DNA of 64,000 nucleotides, taken from an uncultured Paracoccaceae bacterium. GTDB lineage: Bacteria; Pseudomonadota; Alphaproteobacteria; Rhodobacterales; Rhodobacteraceae. A program made the translations under genes and the position numbers. This document shows, piece by piece, positions 1,447 to 13,546 of the stretch. The notes beneath the pieces were generated by a model. The model had not been told where the DNA came from and ran no database searches. It saw only the letters and a program-made list of their open reading frames with translations. Position 1 is the stretch's first letter. The number at the start of each line of letters is the position of its first letter. The stretch covers positions 1-64,000 of the forward strand of contig CANMQJ010000023.1 in assembly GCA_947500005.1 (NCBI GenBank), given 5' to 3'.

Positions 1447-1589
1447 GGTCGGGAGCCGATCATTCTTTGCCCCGGCGCACGCCGCGCAGATGCGGCGAAG
1501 ATGGCGGCCCAAGGGCGAACGTCCGCTCTGTCAGGCCGCGATGCAGCATGTCTACGCCGGAACGAGAGACGGCTATAGGCCGGTCGCGC

Positions 1590-6409: not shown

Positions 6410-8692
6410 CTAACCGCATTTCGAGTGCCCGCAGCTTGCACAGGTCATGCAGCCTTCGACCATGCGCATTTCGTACTGTCCGCAGGACGGACAAGCCTTG
6501 CCGCGCGGTGCGTCGAGGCCGACCACCTGCGCCGTGGGGTCGGACTTCAGGCCCATTCCCTCGCCCTCCAGGAATCCGATGGCGATCATGTGGCGTTCGA
6601 TCACCCCGCCGATGGCCGCGAGGATCGAGGGGATGTACTTGCCCTGCACCCAGGCGCCGCCGCGCGGGTCGAAGACCGCCTTCAGTTCCTCGACCACGAA
6701 AGACACGTCGCCGCCGCGCCGGAACACTGCCGAGATCATGCGTGTGAGCGCGACAGTCCAGGCGAAATGCTCCATGTTCTTGGAGTTGATGAAGACCTCG
6801 AAGGGCCGCCGCCGCCCGCCTATCACGATGTCGTTGATCGTCAGGTAGATGGCGTGCTCGCTGTCGGGCCATTTCAGCTTGTAGGTATTTCCCTCCAGGG
6901 CCTGCGGCCGGTCGAGCGGCTCAGACATGTAAATGACGTCCCCCCCCTCCTCGGGATGCGGTGCATCGGCGGTCTCACCCGGGGCCTGGTCCGCCGTCTC
7001 GCTGACCGACAGGACCGATCCCGTCACATCGTTCGGCCGGTAGGTCGTGCATCCCTTGCAGCCTTCGTCCCAGGCCTGCATGTAGACATCCTTGAACGCG
7101 TCGAAGGAAATGTCCTCGGGGCAGTTGATGGTCTTGGAGATCGAGCTGTCGATCCATTTCTGCGCCGCGGCCTGCATCTTGACATGCTCCAGCGGTGTCA
7201 GCGTCTGGGCGTTCACGAAATACTCGGGCAGGGCCGCGTCGCCGAAGCGGTCGCGCCACATCTGCACGGCGTAGTCGACGACTTCCTCCTCGGTGCGCGA
7301 ACCGTCCTTCTGCAACACCTTGCGCTTGTAGGCATAGGCAAAGACCGGCTCGATCCCGCTCGACACGTTCCCTGCGTAAAGCGAGATCGTGCCCGTGGGC
7401 GCGATCGAGGTCAGAAGCGCGTTGCGGATGCCATGTTCGCGGATCGCATCGCGCACATCCTCGTCCATGCCCTGCATCGTCCCCGAGGCCAGGTATTTCC
7501 CGGCGTCGAAAAGCGGGAAGGCACCCTTTTCCTTCGCCAATTGCACCGACGCCAGATAGGCGGCGCGGGCGATGGCGTGCAACCAGCGCTCCGTCTGACG
7601 CGCCGCCTCGTCCGAACCGTAGCGCAGGCCGACCATCAGCAGCGCATCGGCCAGCCCGGTGACGCCCAGCCCGATCCGGCGCTTGTTGCGCGCCTCCTCG
7701 GCCTGTTGCGGCAGCGGGAATTTCGAGGCGTCGACCACATTGTCCATCATCCGCACGGCGGTCGCCACCAGCTTGTCCAGCGCGCCCTCCTCGATGCCCG
7801 CGCCCTCGCCGAACGGGTCCTTCACCAGCCGCGCAAGGTTGATCGAACCCAGCAGGCAGGCGCCATAGGGCGGCAGGGGCTGCTCGCCACAAGGGTTGGT
7901 GGCGGCGATGGTCTCGCAATAGCTCAGGTTGTTGGCCTGGTTGATCCGGTCGATGAAGATGACGCCCGGTTCGGCATAGTCATAGGTCGCGCGCATGATG
8001 CGGTTCCACAGGTCGCGCGCCTGTATCGTGTGATAGACCTTGCCGTCGAATTCTAGCTCCCAGGGCCCGTCGGCCTTGACCGCCTCCATGAAGGCATCGG
8101 TGACCAGAACCGACATGTTGAACATGCGCAGGCGGGCAGGGTCGGATTTCGCGCTGATGAACTGCTCGATATCGGGGTGATCGCAGCGCATCACCGCCAT
8201 CATCGCGCCCCGACGCGACCCGGCGGACATGATGGTGCGGCACATCGCGTCCCAGACATCCATGAAGGACAGCGGCCCCGAGGCATCCGCCGCCACGCCT
8301 TTGACGTCCGCGCCGCGCGGCCGGATCGTCGAGAAATCATAGCCGATCCCGCCGCCCTGCTGCATGGTCAGCGCGGCCTCCTTCAGCATGTCGAAGATGC
8401 CGCCCATGCTGTCGGGGATGGTGCCCATCACGAAGCAGTTGAACAGCGTCACCTGCCGCGCGGTGCCTGCTCCGGCCGTGATCCGGCCTGCGGGGAGGTA
8501 CTTGAAATCCTCCAGCGCGGCATAGAATTCCTCTTCCCATTTCGCGGGCTCCGCCTCGACCTTGGCGAGGTCGCGCGCGATGCGACGCCAGCTGTCCTCG
8601 ACCGTCTTGTCGATCGGCGTCCCGTCCGCCTCTTTGAAACGGTACTTCATGTCCCATATCTGTTCTGCGATGGGGGCGGCGAAACGGCTCAT
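6410..8692 (-). CDS. nrdJ: adenosylcobalamin-dependent ribonucleoside-diphosphate reductase (class II)
   Basis: MSRFAAPIAEQIWDMKYRFKEADG..., LFNCFVMGTIPDSMGGIFDMLKEAALTMQQGGGIGYDFS, ATNPCGEQPLPPYGACLLGSINL, C-terminal CPSCG..CASCGHSKCG. Confidence 0.95.
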   Translation of the reverse strand: MSRFAAPIAEQIWDMKYRFKEADGTPIDKTVEDSWRRIARDLAKVEAEPAKWEEEFYAALEDFKYLPAGRITAGAGTARQVTLFNCFVMGTIPDSMGGIFDMLKEAALTMQQGGGIGYDFSTIRPRGADVKGVAADASGPLSFMDVWDAMCRTIMSAGSRRGAMMAVMRCDHPDIEQFISAKSDPARLRMFNMSVLVTDAFMEAVKADGPWELEFDGKVYHTIQARDLWNRIMRATYDYAEPGVIFIDRINQANNLSYCETIAATNPCGEQPLPPYGACLLGSINLARLVKDPFGEGAGIEEGALDKLVATAVRMMDNVVDASKFPLPQQAEEARNKRRIGLGVTGLADALLMVGLRYGSDEAARQTERWLHAIARAAYLASVQLAKEKGAFPLFDAGKYLASGTMQGMDEDVRDAIREHGIRNALLTSIAPTGTISLYAGNVSSGIEPVFAYAYKRKVLQKDGSRTEEEVVDYAVQMWRDRFGDAALPEYFVNAQTLTPLEHVKMQAAAQKWIDSSISKTINCPEDISFDAFKDVYMQAWDEGCKGCTTYRPNDVTGSVLSVSETADQAPGETADAPHPEEGGDVIYMSEPLDRPQALEGNTYKLKWPDSEHAIYLTINDIVIGGRRRPFEVFINSKNMEHFAWTVALTRMISAVFRRGGDVSFVVEELKAVFDPRGGAWVQGKYIPSILAAIGGVIERHMIAIGFLEGEGMGLKSDPTAQVVGLDAPRGKACPSCGQYEMRMVEGCMTCASCGHSKCG

Positions 8693-8719: not shown

Positions 8720-8825
8720 TGGGCACGGCGGCGGGACTTGAACCCACAACCTCCTCGCCGTAGCCTACAGTGGGCACAGTAGACACTAGAAAACGAGGCG
8801 CTCTATCCATTTGAGCTACGCCGCG
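8720..8825 (-). tRNA. tRNA-like gene with enlarged (36-nt) anticodon loop; isotype not assignable
   Basis: Acceptor CGCGGCG/CGCCGTG, D arm GCTC-AAATGGATA-GAGC, T arm GTGGG-TTCAAGT-CCCGC, AGGTT variable loop, C73 and encoded CCA; anticodon stem CCTCG/CGAGG encloses 36 nt instead of 7. Confidence 0.7.
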
Positions 8826-8941
8826 AAAGACGATGATTCGTCATCGGACCTAAACACTAGCCCAGCATGTACCAAGGCCACAACAGTTTGAAGTCCCCCG
8901 CCGAACACCTACAATATAAGGCCAAAGCTGGGGGCGACTCT

Positions 8942-9373
8942 GTGGATGACCATATCAATCTCATCAAGCTGTCGGTCGGCACGGAAACCGTTGACGACCT
9001 GATCGCCTGGCAGAAAAGCCAGCAGAGCCGGTACGATGACGGCCTGCCGCGCCATGTCACGCGGATGTGGCCCAAGCGCGAAGCAGAGATCGTGGCCGGC
9101 GGGTCGATCTACTGGGTGATCAAGGGCGTGGTGCAATGTCGCCAGCGCATCCTGCGGCTGGAGGAGGTCACGCGCGCCGACGGCATACGCCGCTGCGCCA
9201 TCGTGCTTGAGCCAGAGCTGCACCGCACCCAGGGCGCGGTCAAGCGCCCCTTCCAGGGATGGCGCTACCTCAAGCCCGAGGAGACGCCCGCCGACCTGCC
9301 CAAGGGGCGTGAGCGCGAGGAACCGCTGCCTGCCGCGCTCAACCGCGCACTGGCCGAGATCGGGGTGATCTGA
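8942..9373 (+). CDS. DUF1489 family protein
   Basis: VDDHINLIKLSVGTETVDDLIAWQ..., GGSIYWVIKGVVQCRQRIL, RPFQGWRYL motifs. Confidence 0.8.
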   Translation: MDDHINLIKLSVGTETVDDLIAWQKSQQSRYDDGLPRHVTRMWPKREAEIVAGGSIYWVIKGVVQCRQRILRLEEVTRADGIRRCAIVLEPELHRTQGAVKRPFQGWRYLKPEETPADLPKGREREEPLPAALNRALAEIGVI

Positions 9374-10278: not shown

Positions 10279-10968
10279 TCAGCCCAGGCGGCGCAGCAGG
10301 TTGTCGAGGGTTTCGCGCTGACCATCCGGCGTCCCGGCCACGCGGCTGCGCCAAAGCGTCGCCTGGCTGCGCAGGATCAGCCCGTCCGAGAGGATCTTGA
10401 GATGGTTGGCACGCAGCGTCTCACCGGTCGAGGTGATGTCGGCAATGGCCTCGGCGGTCTCGTTCGTCACGGTCCCCTCGGTCGCGCCCTGGCTGTCGAC
10501 CAGCGTGTAATCGGCCACCCCCGCCTGGGTCAGGAACTCGCGCACCAGGCGGTGGTACTTGGTGGCGATCCGCAACCGGTGACCGTGGCGCGCCCGGAAC
10601 GCCGCCGCCGCCGCGTCGAGATCGTCGAGCGTGTCGACATCGACCCAGGCGCGCGGCACCGCGATGATCAGGTCGGCCTGGCCAAAGCCCAGGGGGGCGA
10701 TCTCTTCCACCTGCTGCTCCCAGCGCGGCAGTTTCTCGTGCACCAGGTCGGTCCCGGTCACGCCAAGATGCAGTCGACCGGCGGCCAGTTCGCGCGGAAT
10801 CTCCCCGGCCGACAGCAGCACCAGGGTCACGCCCTCGATCCCGTCCACGCGCCCCGCATATTCACGGTCGGATCCGGCGCGGCTGAGCGTGATGCCGCGT
10901 TTCTCGAACCATGCAAAGGTCTTTTCCATCAGCCGGCCCTTGGACGGCACGCCAAGCTTCAGGCTCAT
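10279..10968 (-). CDS. hisG: ATP phosphoribosyltransferase, short form
   Basis: MSLKLGVPSKGRLMEKTFAWFEKRG..., LGVTGTDLVHEK, adjacent to hisZ. Confidence 0.93.
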   Translation of the reverse strand: MSLKLGVPSKGRLMEKTFAWFEKRGITLSRAGSDREYAGRVDGIEGVTLVLLSAGEIPRELAAGRLHLGVTGTDLVHEKLPRWEQQVEEIAPLGFGQADLIIAVPRAWVDVDTLDDLDAAAAAFRARHGHRLRIATKYHRLVREFLTQAGVADYTLVDSQGATEGTVTNETAEAIADITSTGETLRANHLKILSDGLILRSQATLWRSRVAGTPDGQRETLDNLLRRLG

Positions 10969-12053
10969 CGCGCGCCCTCCCCCAGTTCCAGCATCAGCCC
11001 CGGGCGCAGCACGCCGCCCACCGCCGGGATCTCGGCCCCGTTGCCCAGTTGCCGGGTCAGCGCGTCATAGCGCCCGCCCGTGGCGACCGGCGGCAGGTCG
11101 GGGCGGCGCTCGGCAGAGAAGCCAAAAACGAAACCGTCGTAATACTCCATCGAGGTCCGGCCATAGGAGGCCTCGAATTCCAGCCGGTCCACGTCGATCC
11201 CCCGGCCTTGCAACGCGCCAATCCGCGCCTCCAGCCGATCGAGCGCCGGGGTGATCTGCGGGAGGTCCACCGCGACGTCGCGCAGCCGTTCCAGCGCAAA
11301 GGGCATGGTCTCGCGCACTGCGAGCAACGTCTCCAGCGCGCGCAATTCGGCCTCGGCGATGGGCGGTTCGGCGGCATCGGCGCGCAGCGCGGCGATACGC
11401 TCCACGATCTCGGTCCCACTCCGCTTGCCGATCATCGGCCCGGCCTCGACCATCGGATCGGCAGCGGCCAAGAGCGCCGCCCGGCTGGCCGGCACGGGTG
11501 CGCGCCCGGCAAACCGGTCCAGAAGCGCGCGGAACCGCCGCGGCCGCCAGATATGGCGCATCAGCGCGGCCTTGCGCCGCTCGGTCGTGCGCAGCCCCTC
11601 GACCGCAGCCATCAGGATGCCGATATCGCCCGTGGCCGCCCGCAGGTCGAGCCCGTCCAGAGCCTGCGCGATCAGTGCGAAGACCTCGGCATCCGCCTCG
11701 GCGGGCGCCTCGCGGTCGAACACCTCGTATCCCACCTGGATATACTCGTTGGCACGGTCGGGATCATGCTCCTGCCGGCGAAAGACCTCGCCCGCATAGG
11801 TGTAACGCGCCGGTTCGGCCCCGTGAGCCATGTGCATCTGCACAACCGGCACGGTGAAATCCGGGCGCAGCATCTGCTCGCCCCTGAGAGCGTCCGAGGT
11901 GACATAGGCCCGCCCCCGGATGTCCTCTCCATAAAGGTCCAGAAGCGTCTCGGCCGGTTGCAGGATGGGCGTCTCGACCGGCTGCGCGCCAGCCACCTCG
12001 AAGCCCGCGCGCAGGCGCGCCGCCTGCTCCAGCGTCTCGGCGCGGCTTGGCAT
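10965..12053 (-). CDS. hisZ: ATP phosphoribosyltransferase regulatory subunit
   Basis: HisRS-like core (MLRPDFTVPVVQMHMAHGAEPARYTYAGEVFR, ATGGRYD) without the full synthetase; between hisG and hisS. Confidence 0.9.
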   Translation of the reverse strand: MPSRAETLEQAARLRAGFEVAGAQPVETPILQPAETLLDLYGEDIRGRAYVTSDALRGEQMLRPDFTVPVVQMHMAHGAEPARYTYAGEVFRRQEHDPDRANEYIQVGYEVFDREAPAEADAEVFALIAQALDGLDLRAATGDIGILMAAVEGLRTTERRKAALMRHIWRPRRFRALLDRFAGRAPVPASRAALLAAADPMVEAGPMIGKRSGTEIVERIAALRADAAEPPIAEAELRALETLLAVRETMPFALERLRDVAVDLPQITPALDRLEARIGALQGRGIDVDRLEFEASYGRTSMEYYDGFVFGFSAERRPDLPPVATGGRYDALTRQLGNGAEIPAVGGVLRPGLMLELGEGAR

Positions 12054-13546
12054 CACGCCTGCCCGCCCTGCTCCGCGAGAAGCGCGCGCACGCGCTCCAC
12101 CAGCGCGTCGCGTGGCACCTCGAACTGGCTGGGGCGTTCCTTCCACTCCTCCAGCGTCGCGTTCTCGGCGATCTGTGCGCCAAGGATCAGGTCCTTGACC
12201 TGCACGATGCCCTTTTCCTTCTCTTCGGCCCCCTCGATGATCGCCAGGGGCGCGTTGCGGCGGTCGGCATATTTCAACTGGTTGCCAAAATTCTTCGGAT
12301 TGCCCAAATAGACCTCGGCCCGGATGCCTGCATTGCGCAGCTCGGCCACCATCGCCTGGTAATCGGCCATGCGGTCACGATCCATCACCGTCACCACCAC
12401 CGGCCCACGCTCGGCCGTGCCGACCCGACCCTTCTCGCGCAGCGCGGCCAGCAGTCGGTCCACCCCGATCGACACGCCGGTCGCCGGAACTTCCTGCCCG
12501 GTGAAGCGCTTGACCAGGTCGTCATAGCGCCCGCCGCCGGCCACCGAGCCGAACTGCCGCTTGCGGCCCTTGTCGTCGAGGATCTCGAAGGTCAGCTCCG
12601 CCTCGTAAACCGGCCCGGTGTAGTAACCGAGGCCCCGCACCACCGATGGATCGATCACGATCCGGTCGGCGCCGTACCCCCCGGCATCAAGCAGCGCAGC
12701 GATCTGTTGCAGTTCGCTCACCCCTTCTGCGCCCGTGGCGCTGTCGCCCACCGCCGCGCGCAGGTTCGCAAGCGTTCCAGCGGCATCCGCGGCGCGGGAG
12801 GTCAGAAAGGCGATCACCGGTTCGGCCTGCGCTTCGCTCAGCCCCACGCCATCGATATAGGCGCCCGAGGCATCGAGCCGCCCCTTGCCCAGCAATTCGC
12901 GAACGCCTGCCTCACCCACCTTGTCGAACTTGTCGATGGTGCGCAGCACGGCCTCGCGCGTCTCGCCCTCTTCCAGGCCCATGACCTCCAGCACGCCGTT
13001 CAGAACCTTGCGGTTGTTCACCCGAACGATGTAATCGCCGCGCGGGATGCCCACCGCCTCCAGCGTGTCCGCAAGCATCGCGCAGATCTCGGCATCCGCC
13101 GCCATCGAGGCCGAGCCCACCGTATCCGCATCGCATTGATAGAACTGGCGATAGCGCCCCGGCCCCGGCTTCTCGTTGCGCCAGACCGGCCCCATCGCGT
13201 AGCGGCGGTAAGGCGTCGGCAGATCGTTGCGGTGCTGGGCATAGACCCGCGCCAGCGGCGCCGTCAGGTCATAGCGCAGCGCCATCCACTCGCCCTTCTC
13301 GCCCTCGTCCTCCTCCTGCCAGGCAAAGACGCCGGCATTGGGGCGGTCCACGTCGGGCAGGAACTTGCCCAGCGCCTCGACCGTCTCGACCGCCGAGCTT
13401 TCCAGCGCGTCGAAGCCATAGCGATGATAGACCCCGGCGATCGTCTGCAGCATCTCGGCGCGCTGCGTGACGTCCTGTCCGAAATAGTCGCGGAACCCTT
13501 TCGGCGTGATGGCCTTGGGGCGGGGCTGTTTCTTGGGCTTTGCCAT
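12053..13546 (-). CDS. hisS: histidyl-tRNA synthetase
   Basis: [53 protein letters not shown]; stop and hisZ start overlap (TGATG). Confidence 0.95.

Follow-up and report, generated by a model that had tools for sequence, protein, structure and literature searches.

A tRNA-like gene with arginine features and a hairpin in its anticodon arm, and its relatives among the Proteobacteria

The DNA studied here is a stretch of 64,000 nucleotides from an uncultured Paracoccaceae bacterium (positions 1 to 64,000 of contig CANMQJ010000023.1, assembly GCA_947500005.1; hereafter "the window"). On its minus strand, upstream of nrdJ, the gene for a class II ribonucleotide reductase, lies a tRNA-like gene (8720–8825) that has additional nucleotides in its anticodon arm. 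An earlier note, made from the sequence alone, had proposed that the gene is a tRNA with a very small atypical intron, a tRNA pseudogene with intact arms, or a tRNA-like RNA with a non-decoding role. Which of these is it? Our analyses showed that the gene belongs to a family of RNAs with the features of arginine tRNAs that is sparsely distributed and horizontally spread; both the arginine identity and the family membership go beyond what had been observed previously. Among the three proposals the non-decoding role was the best supported, and our favored, still tentative, reading is that the RNA mimics an arginine tRNA.

The window gene and the register of its anticodon arm

A cmscan search with Infernal matched the window gene to the Rfam tRNA model RF00005 over its full length (1–71). 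The score was 49 bits, the gathering score of the model being 29, which upholds the call of a tRNA-like gene. The sequence quoted in the earlier note was exact (window 8825–8720, minus strand, CCA included). All four stems pair, and the covariance model alignment assigned the surplus bases to the anticodon loop and not to the variable arm. The discriminator is C73 (8723), the CCA end is encoded (8722–8720) and position -1 is a T, the earlier note having seen no G there. ARAGORN reported no tRNA in the window in a default scan. When introns were allowed, it called the gene a "tRNA-Glu(ttc)" with a 29-nt intron, together with two further intron calls elsewhere in the window that look like chance.

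If a U.G is counted as the sixth pair of the anticodon stem, the loop reads U32 U33 UCU A37, followed by an insert (8786–8760, GTGTCTACTGTGCCCACTGTAGGCTAC) and then G38, as reflected in the motif TTTTCTA ... GG. In this register the insert is therefore 27 nt long and the anticodon is UCU (8788–8790), for arginine, not UUC. The location of the surplus was thus as originally described and its size was not, since 29 nt had been counted. ARAGORN called tRNA-Arg(tct) after removal of the insert, and the structural alignment of family members (see below) supported both the insert and the anticodon. The UUC (glutamate) reading of ARAGORN was rejected because the sixth-pair register yields arginine triplets throughout the members. 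With 27 extra nucleotides between A37 and G38, the gene as encoded does not specify the 7-nt, decoding-competent anticodon loop of a tRNA-Arg. The fold of this single copy was unremarkable (z = -0.92 for the whole RNA; p about 0.08 for the insert), so the case for the gene rests on its tRNA score and on its family.

Rfam identified 48 tRNA matches in the genome that carries the window (5.59 Mb). Ordinary tRNA-Arg genes for UCU, CCU, ACG, and CCG are present, as are three tRNA-Glu(UUC) genes, and the window copy is therefore surplus for decoding. The same matches included no tRNA-Tyr and no tRNA-Leu(UAA), probably through assembly gaps or low scores, and one truncated tRNA at a contig end (C40:21176-21238).

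A family with arginine identity

We collected 26 members of the family, the window gene included, from Alpha-, Beta-, and Gammaproteobacteria. Every member is a tRNA cloverleaf whose anticodon arm contains a hairpin of 18–37 nt, and in nearly all of them this hairpin lies at 37/38. Full-length relatives from four further alphaproteobacterial genera (L079–L082) came from a distant blastn search of plasmids, and length-and-body patterns run on genome contigs and viral contigs found more; the genome-contig search was dominated by archaeal intron tRNAs, and the members it gave are those among the matches listed. Whole-genome searches added G052, G079, G439, G484, and G232, and further plasmid searches added members from Methylocaldum, Spongiibacter, and Methylobacter. 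Culturable carriers of the family include Caulobacter sp. FWC26, Xanthobacter dioxanivorans, Methylosinus sp. C49, and Methylocaldum szegediense. The window copy has the marks of the family, namely an arginine-type loop followed by the hairpin, GG inside the anticodon stem, and A20.

A family covariance model (R1) built from ten seeds gave the window copy, itself a seed, 95.3 bits, compared with 58–67 bits for ordinary tRNAs. A scan of 395 genomes with R1 identified at least three members, with 95–102 bits against the same range for ordinary tRNAs, the best nine candidates per genome having been scored. Divergent members scored 62–83 bits, and the weakest of these, which overlap the ordinary-tRNA range, were admitted on length and structure. 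Pattern matches were present in at least 3 of 397 Rhodobacteraceae and at least 2 of 395 alphaproteobacterial genomes (the genome of the window counted in both), and the reversed pattern had no match in either set. A motif pattern matched nothing besides the window's own copy in 389 genomes of the phylum, the E. coli genomes searched held no family match, and the published phages searched gave partial tRNA matches only. We found no account of such RNAs in the open-access texts searched.

The members share a structure that is maintained by paired changes. In a partly hand-made alignment, all 126 of 126 anticodon stem pairs form. In the model alignment, which is fitted to the structure (so that its figures lean toward that structure) and in which 4 of the 26 rows are ordinary tRNAs, 98.7% of cells were paired and 20 of 24 pairs had changed on both sides, values reached by none of 500 shuffles; sliding the partner columns by one to three lowered pairing to 39–52%. 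The insert varies in length and sequence between members and keeps its hairpin form in most of them, its base pairs forming in about 17–19 of 22. The internal loop at the base of the hairpin is strongly kept (C in 20/21, A in 19/21, and the opposite GG in 18/22, in the register first used), and several members have an apical loop that contains CAC. Two loci, L124 and L303, each have two tandem copies behind one gene for a helix-turn-helix (HTH) protein, and these copies have diverged yet retain the features.

When the stem is given one more pair at its base, the loop of the members reads 32, 33, N-C-K, A37, the hairpin, and then G38. In 22 of the 26 members the N-C-K triplet is one for arginine (UCU in 10, UCG in 8, GCG in 2, and ACG in 2), positions 34 and 36 varying almost only within the arginine boxes. 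The patterns that defined the family concerned body and length, and the arginine triplets were noticed only afterwards. ARAGORN assigned tRNA-Arg with these triplets to 20 of 24 sequences from which the hairpin had been removed and made two calls among the 24 whole sequences, and it called tRNA-Arg(UCU) in both members of a held-out Methylobacter tandem pair that was found later. The members are related, and the identity counts are thus not independent; despite this kinship, the four different arginine triplets point to repeated changes that stayed within one amino acid.

The bacterial arginine identity set comprises A/G73, U73, G2-C71, C3-G70, A20, C35, and U/G36 (PMC9976931). Of these, A20, the main bacterial arginine identity element, is present in 26/26 members (in the GGA of the D-loop at 8806 in the window), C3-G70 in 24/26, and G2-C71 in 21/26, and the discriminator is not kept. 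The window copy matches the set at A20, C3-G70, C35, and U36. Among 46 ARAGORN-called tRNAs of its genome, A20 was found only in the four tRNA-Arg. In the 22 members with arginine anticodons G38 is invariant and U33 occurs in 19; the remaining three have G33, which fits a non-decoding RNA.

Overall, the family resembles bacterial tRNA-Arg (RF00005) in its cloverleaf, its TTCAAGT T-loop, the GG of its D-loop, A20, C35, and U/G36, in having mostly C3-G70 and G2-C71, and in the often encoded CCA. It differs in the hairpin of 18–37 nt that separates A37 from G38, in the variable or C discriminator, in being missed by a default ARAGORN scan, and in being tied to HTH or nrdJ transcripts. Annotation is prone to miss or mislabel members of the family, whether or not their RNAs are spliced.

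Four viral contigs held further tRNA-like stretches. L297 (470-585) and L299 (minus strand) have CTTTCTA followed by a shared hairpin, ATACGAGATAGCAGTCGTAT, the rest being diverged; these were not counted as members as their D-loop is without A20. L298 has, around 1472-1570 (minus strand) and beside other tRNA matches, a tRNA whose anticodon arm is 12 bp long (TGCTTTCTACGC..GCGTAGAAGGCA). In L295 (9719-9830) a tRNA-like sequence has an unusual anticodon arm and perhaps a CUA anticodon.

Mimicry, splicing, or scaffold

RtcB (PF01139) and the tRNA-splicing endonuclease EndA (PF01974) were each absent from all six carrier genomes searched, and control genomes gave matches, so the known protein routes for removal of the insert are missing in these six carriers. 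A cmscan search of the window gene against Rfam gave no group I ribozyme match, its insert being 27 nt. Because the protein routes are missing and a group I ribozyme would not fit into so short an insert, the RNA most likely stays whole, recognized as an arginine tRNA and non-decoding.

We therefore lean, with less than even confidence, toward the window gene encoding an arginine-tRNA mimic that may be bound or charged as tRNA-Arg and would have no role on the ribosome. In favor of this reading are the kept arginine anticodons and identity elements, the paired changes in the stems, an insert that remains a hairpin although its sequence and length vary, the G33 of three members, the missing splicing enzymes, the ordinary tRNA-Arg genes of the genome, and the mobile settings of many members (plasmids, and an HTH partner at 14 loci). 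The mimic RNA would be released from a longer transcript by RNase P and the enzymes that process tRNA 3' ends; this transcript would be the nrdJ leader in the window and, for the mobile form, the mRNA of the HTH gene. The released RNA would fold as a tRNA. Arginyl-tRNA synthetase would then be shown its usual identity elements (A20, C35, U/G36, and C3-G70), and decoding should fail, since a hairpin that permanently separates A37 from G38 would occupy the place of codon pairing. As to its role, we speculate that the mimic could compete for arginylation or report on it, or could act as a decoy that draws off nucleases directed at the anticodon loops of arginine tRNAs; colicin D cleaves arginine tRNAs.

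Several findings weigh against mimicry. In the register used, no clear anticodon for arginine is present in four members: L173 and L219 read ACU, L280 is ambiguous, and L152 has UCU 3' of the hairpin (by eye). In the window copy the 2-71 pair is G.U and the discriminator is C73, a position variable between members for which the arginine set lists A/G/U73 (PMC9976931). The retention in most members of U33, and of a 7-nt loop after hairpin removal, is hard to account for if the RNA never decodes, and the decoy role is tied to no known protein.

The strongest alternative is that the RNA is a decoding arginine tRNA and the hairpin a mini-intron of 18–37 nt at 37/38, removed by a novel bacterial cutting-and-joining activity. 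A small intron, as proposed in the earlier note, fits the anatomy: 37/38 is the usual site of archaeal and eukaryotic tRNA introns, the insert sequence varies freely as in introns, and without the hairpin the loop has the canonical 7 nt (in the window, UU-UCU-A-G). Once their hairpins are taken out, L080, L118, and L185 become tRNA-Arg(UCU) that are canonical throughout, the stem having 5 bp and the variable loop 5 nt, and the conservation of U33 and G38 accords with decoding. It is because hairpin removal leaves such clean loops, and canonical tRNAs in these three members, that we regard this explanation as unlikely rather than dismiss it. Against it stand the absence of the known splicing enzymes, the G33 of three members, the 6-bp anticodon stem that window-type loops require, the tRNA-Arg(UCU) already present in the same genome, and the size of the inserts, which is much below that of group I introns, the type described for bacterial tRNAs (PMC8450103). 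The general claim that Proteobacteria carry arginine tRNAs with 18–37-nt introns at 37/38 that are spliced without EndA or RtcB appeared to us a little more doubtful still.

Several known interrupted or unusual tRNAs come close to the family. Archaeal and eukaryotic introns at 37/38 share the insertion point and small size, but no bulge-helix-bulge motif was seen in the family, and EndA and RtcB are absent from the six carriers. The group I introns of bacterial tRNA genes likewise interrupt the anticodon loop, but they act as ribozymes that splice themselves out, and most exceed 200 nt (PMC8450103), whereas the family inserts have 18–37 nt and no Rfam ribozyme match. The allo-tRNAs and selC* tRNAs of bacteria are also out of the ordinary, their helices having odd lengths (PMC7609411); these are altered in the acceptor/T domain, whereas the family is altered in the anticodon arm.

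Bacterial Y RNAs (YrlA) are tRNA mimics bound by Rsr/Ro60, and they have a tRNA-like fold and an extended arm, as does the family. However, the window RNA has an open acceptor end with CCA and no Rfam Y RNA match, and no TROVE/Ro60 protein (PF05731) was found in its genome; a Y RNA reading was rejected on the absence of the latter.

A third explanation is that the tRNA body is a mere scaffold of a stable small RNA, the hairpin and its basal internal loop being the working part and the arginine features an inheritance from a tRNA-Arg ancestor. tRNA scaffolds are a known device for stabilizing RNA, and the strongly kept internal loop and the recurrent CAC apical loop are in keeping with such a function. 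However, neither the sequence nor the length of the hairpin is conserved, and inheritance alone is insufficient to account for the retention of A20, C35, and U/G36 and for variation confined to arginine identity. We consider a scaffold improbable.

If the RNAs are unspliced, as under arginine-tRNA mimicry, nature would have built arginine-tRNA look-alikes that are not meant for decoding. Plasmids and viral contigs carry them behind one type of gene for a DNA-binding protein, and in some Rhodobacterales they have settled beside ribonucleotide reductase. They would then represent a regulator or decoy based on a tRNA, for the like of which we found no description in the open-access texts searched. 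If they are spliced, bacteria would possess an unrecognized route for the removal of tiny tRNA introns.

Gene neighborhoods and transcript processing

The family occurs in two main settings. In the window, a gap of 27 nt separates the tRNA-like gene from the start of nrdJ (6410–8692, minus strand; Pfam Ribonuc_red_lgC, 430 bits, and TSCPD), and a divergent DUF1489 gene (8867–9373, plus strand; PF07370, 186 bits) forms the other border of a conserved site. This DUF1489//nrdJ site, at which the HTH gene is absent, holds all five Rhodobacterales chromosomal copies (the window, L152, L173, G052, and G079), DUF1489 having been identified by Pfam in the window and by translation similarity in the other four loci. 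The RNA is absent at most nrdJ loci of Rhodobacteraceae (24 of thirty upstream regions were read; six were without a recognized start), and in the relatives' nrdJ upstream regions examined no ordinary homologous tRNA was found at the same site.

The second setting, often plasmid-borne, comprises 14 loci (L080, L081, L082, L124, L130, L179, L188, L198, L229, L262, L280, L301, L302, and L303) in which the gene directly upstream on the same strand, the HTH gene referred to above, encodes a small winged-helix protein (Pfam DnaD_N and HTH_36).

These arrangements suggested a further explanation, in which the tRNA-like structure is a cis-acting processing element at which RNase P and the 3' tRNA enzymes shape the HTH or nrdJ mRNA, the released RNA being functionless. 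In most of the 14 loci the RNA lies within about a dozen nucleotides of the HTH stop codon (with a 2-nt overlap in L280; L124 and L198 were not placed), in four of the five Rhodobacterales loci it lies 20–42 nt before the nrdJ start, and a different structured RNA takes the same slot behind other HTH homologues. However, the RNA of G052 is 176 nt upstream of nrdJ, with an apparently duplicated promoter (CAATTGACCG) before the RNA and nrdJ each; L118, L185, and L219 have the RNA without either gene; and an arginine anticodon and inserted hairpin would be superfluous for such a role. We thus give this explanation little credence. Least probable by far is a decayed tRNA gene or functionless palindromic insertion: the genome's ordinary arginine tRNAs, the patchy presence, and the unremarkable fold of the window copy would suit it, but insert position and cloverleaf are the same in 26 members across three proteobacterial classes, all stems have compensatory changes, the arginine anticodon and A20 are kept, and the diverged tandem copies retain the features, which disfavors the pseudogene proposed earlier.

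The stretch between the tRNA-like gene and DUF1489 and extending into the latter (8826–8930, minus strand) holds the presumed nrdJ promoter (ATATTGTAG..CAAACTGTTGTGG..), recognized by eye in comparison with other nrdJ upstream regions; the same elements occur in relatives without the tRNA-like gene. No consensus sigma-70 site was found on this strand. A promoter-like site on the plus strand (8888–8915) is inside the listed DUF1489 open reading frame, and the true DUF1489 start may therefore be further in. Upstream of the DUF1489/nrdJ site are hisS-hisZ-hisG-like genes (10279–13546, minus strand), as judged by open reading frame translations.

Genes with defense annotations were found near several members: Gabija GajA (L082), PDC-S54 (L130), a DruM2-like methylase (L188), DpdB (L229), a weak PD-T4-5 match (L118), and restriction genes (L302 and L303). 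The proximity of defense or toxin-antitoxin genes to many members is only suggestive, there being no background rate for comparison.

The possibility that the HTH gene is a replication initiator with upstream iterons was rejected, as no iteron array was found. Viral contigs searched with two HTH queries gave no confirmed match. HTH homologues on 12 other plasmids had no tRNA-like gene behind them, and some had another structured RNA. Downstream of the HTH homologue genes of L249–L252 and L256 there is a different conserved structured stretch with no Rfam match, which has the form GCTGAGCCCCGG..GCATGCC..GGCAGAGG..GGGCTTACG in Hyphomicrobiales and TCCCGGGAGGAGGCTTTCGCCC.. in Enterobacterales.
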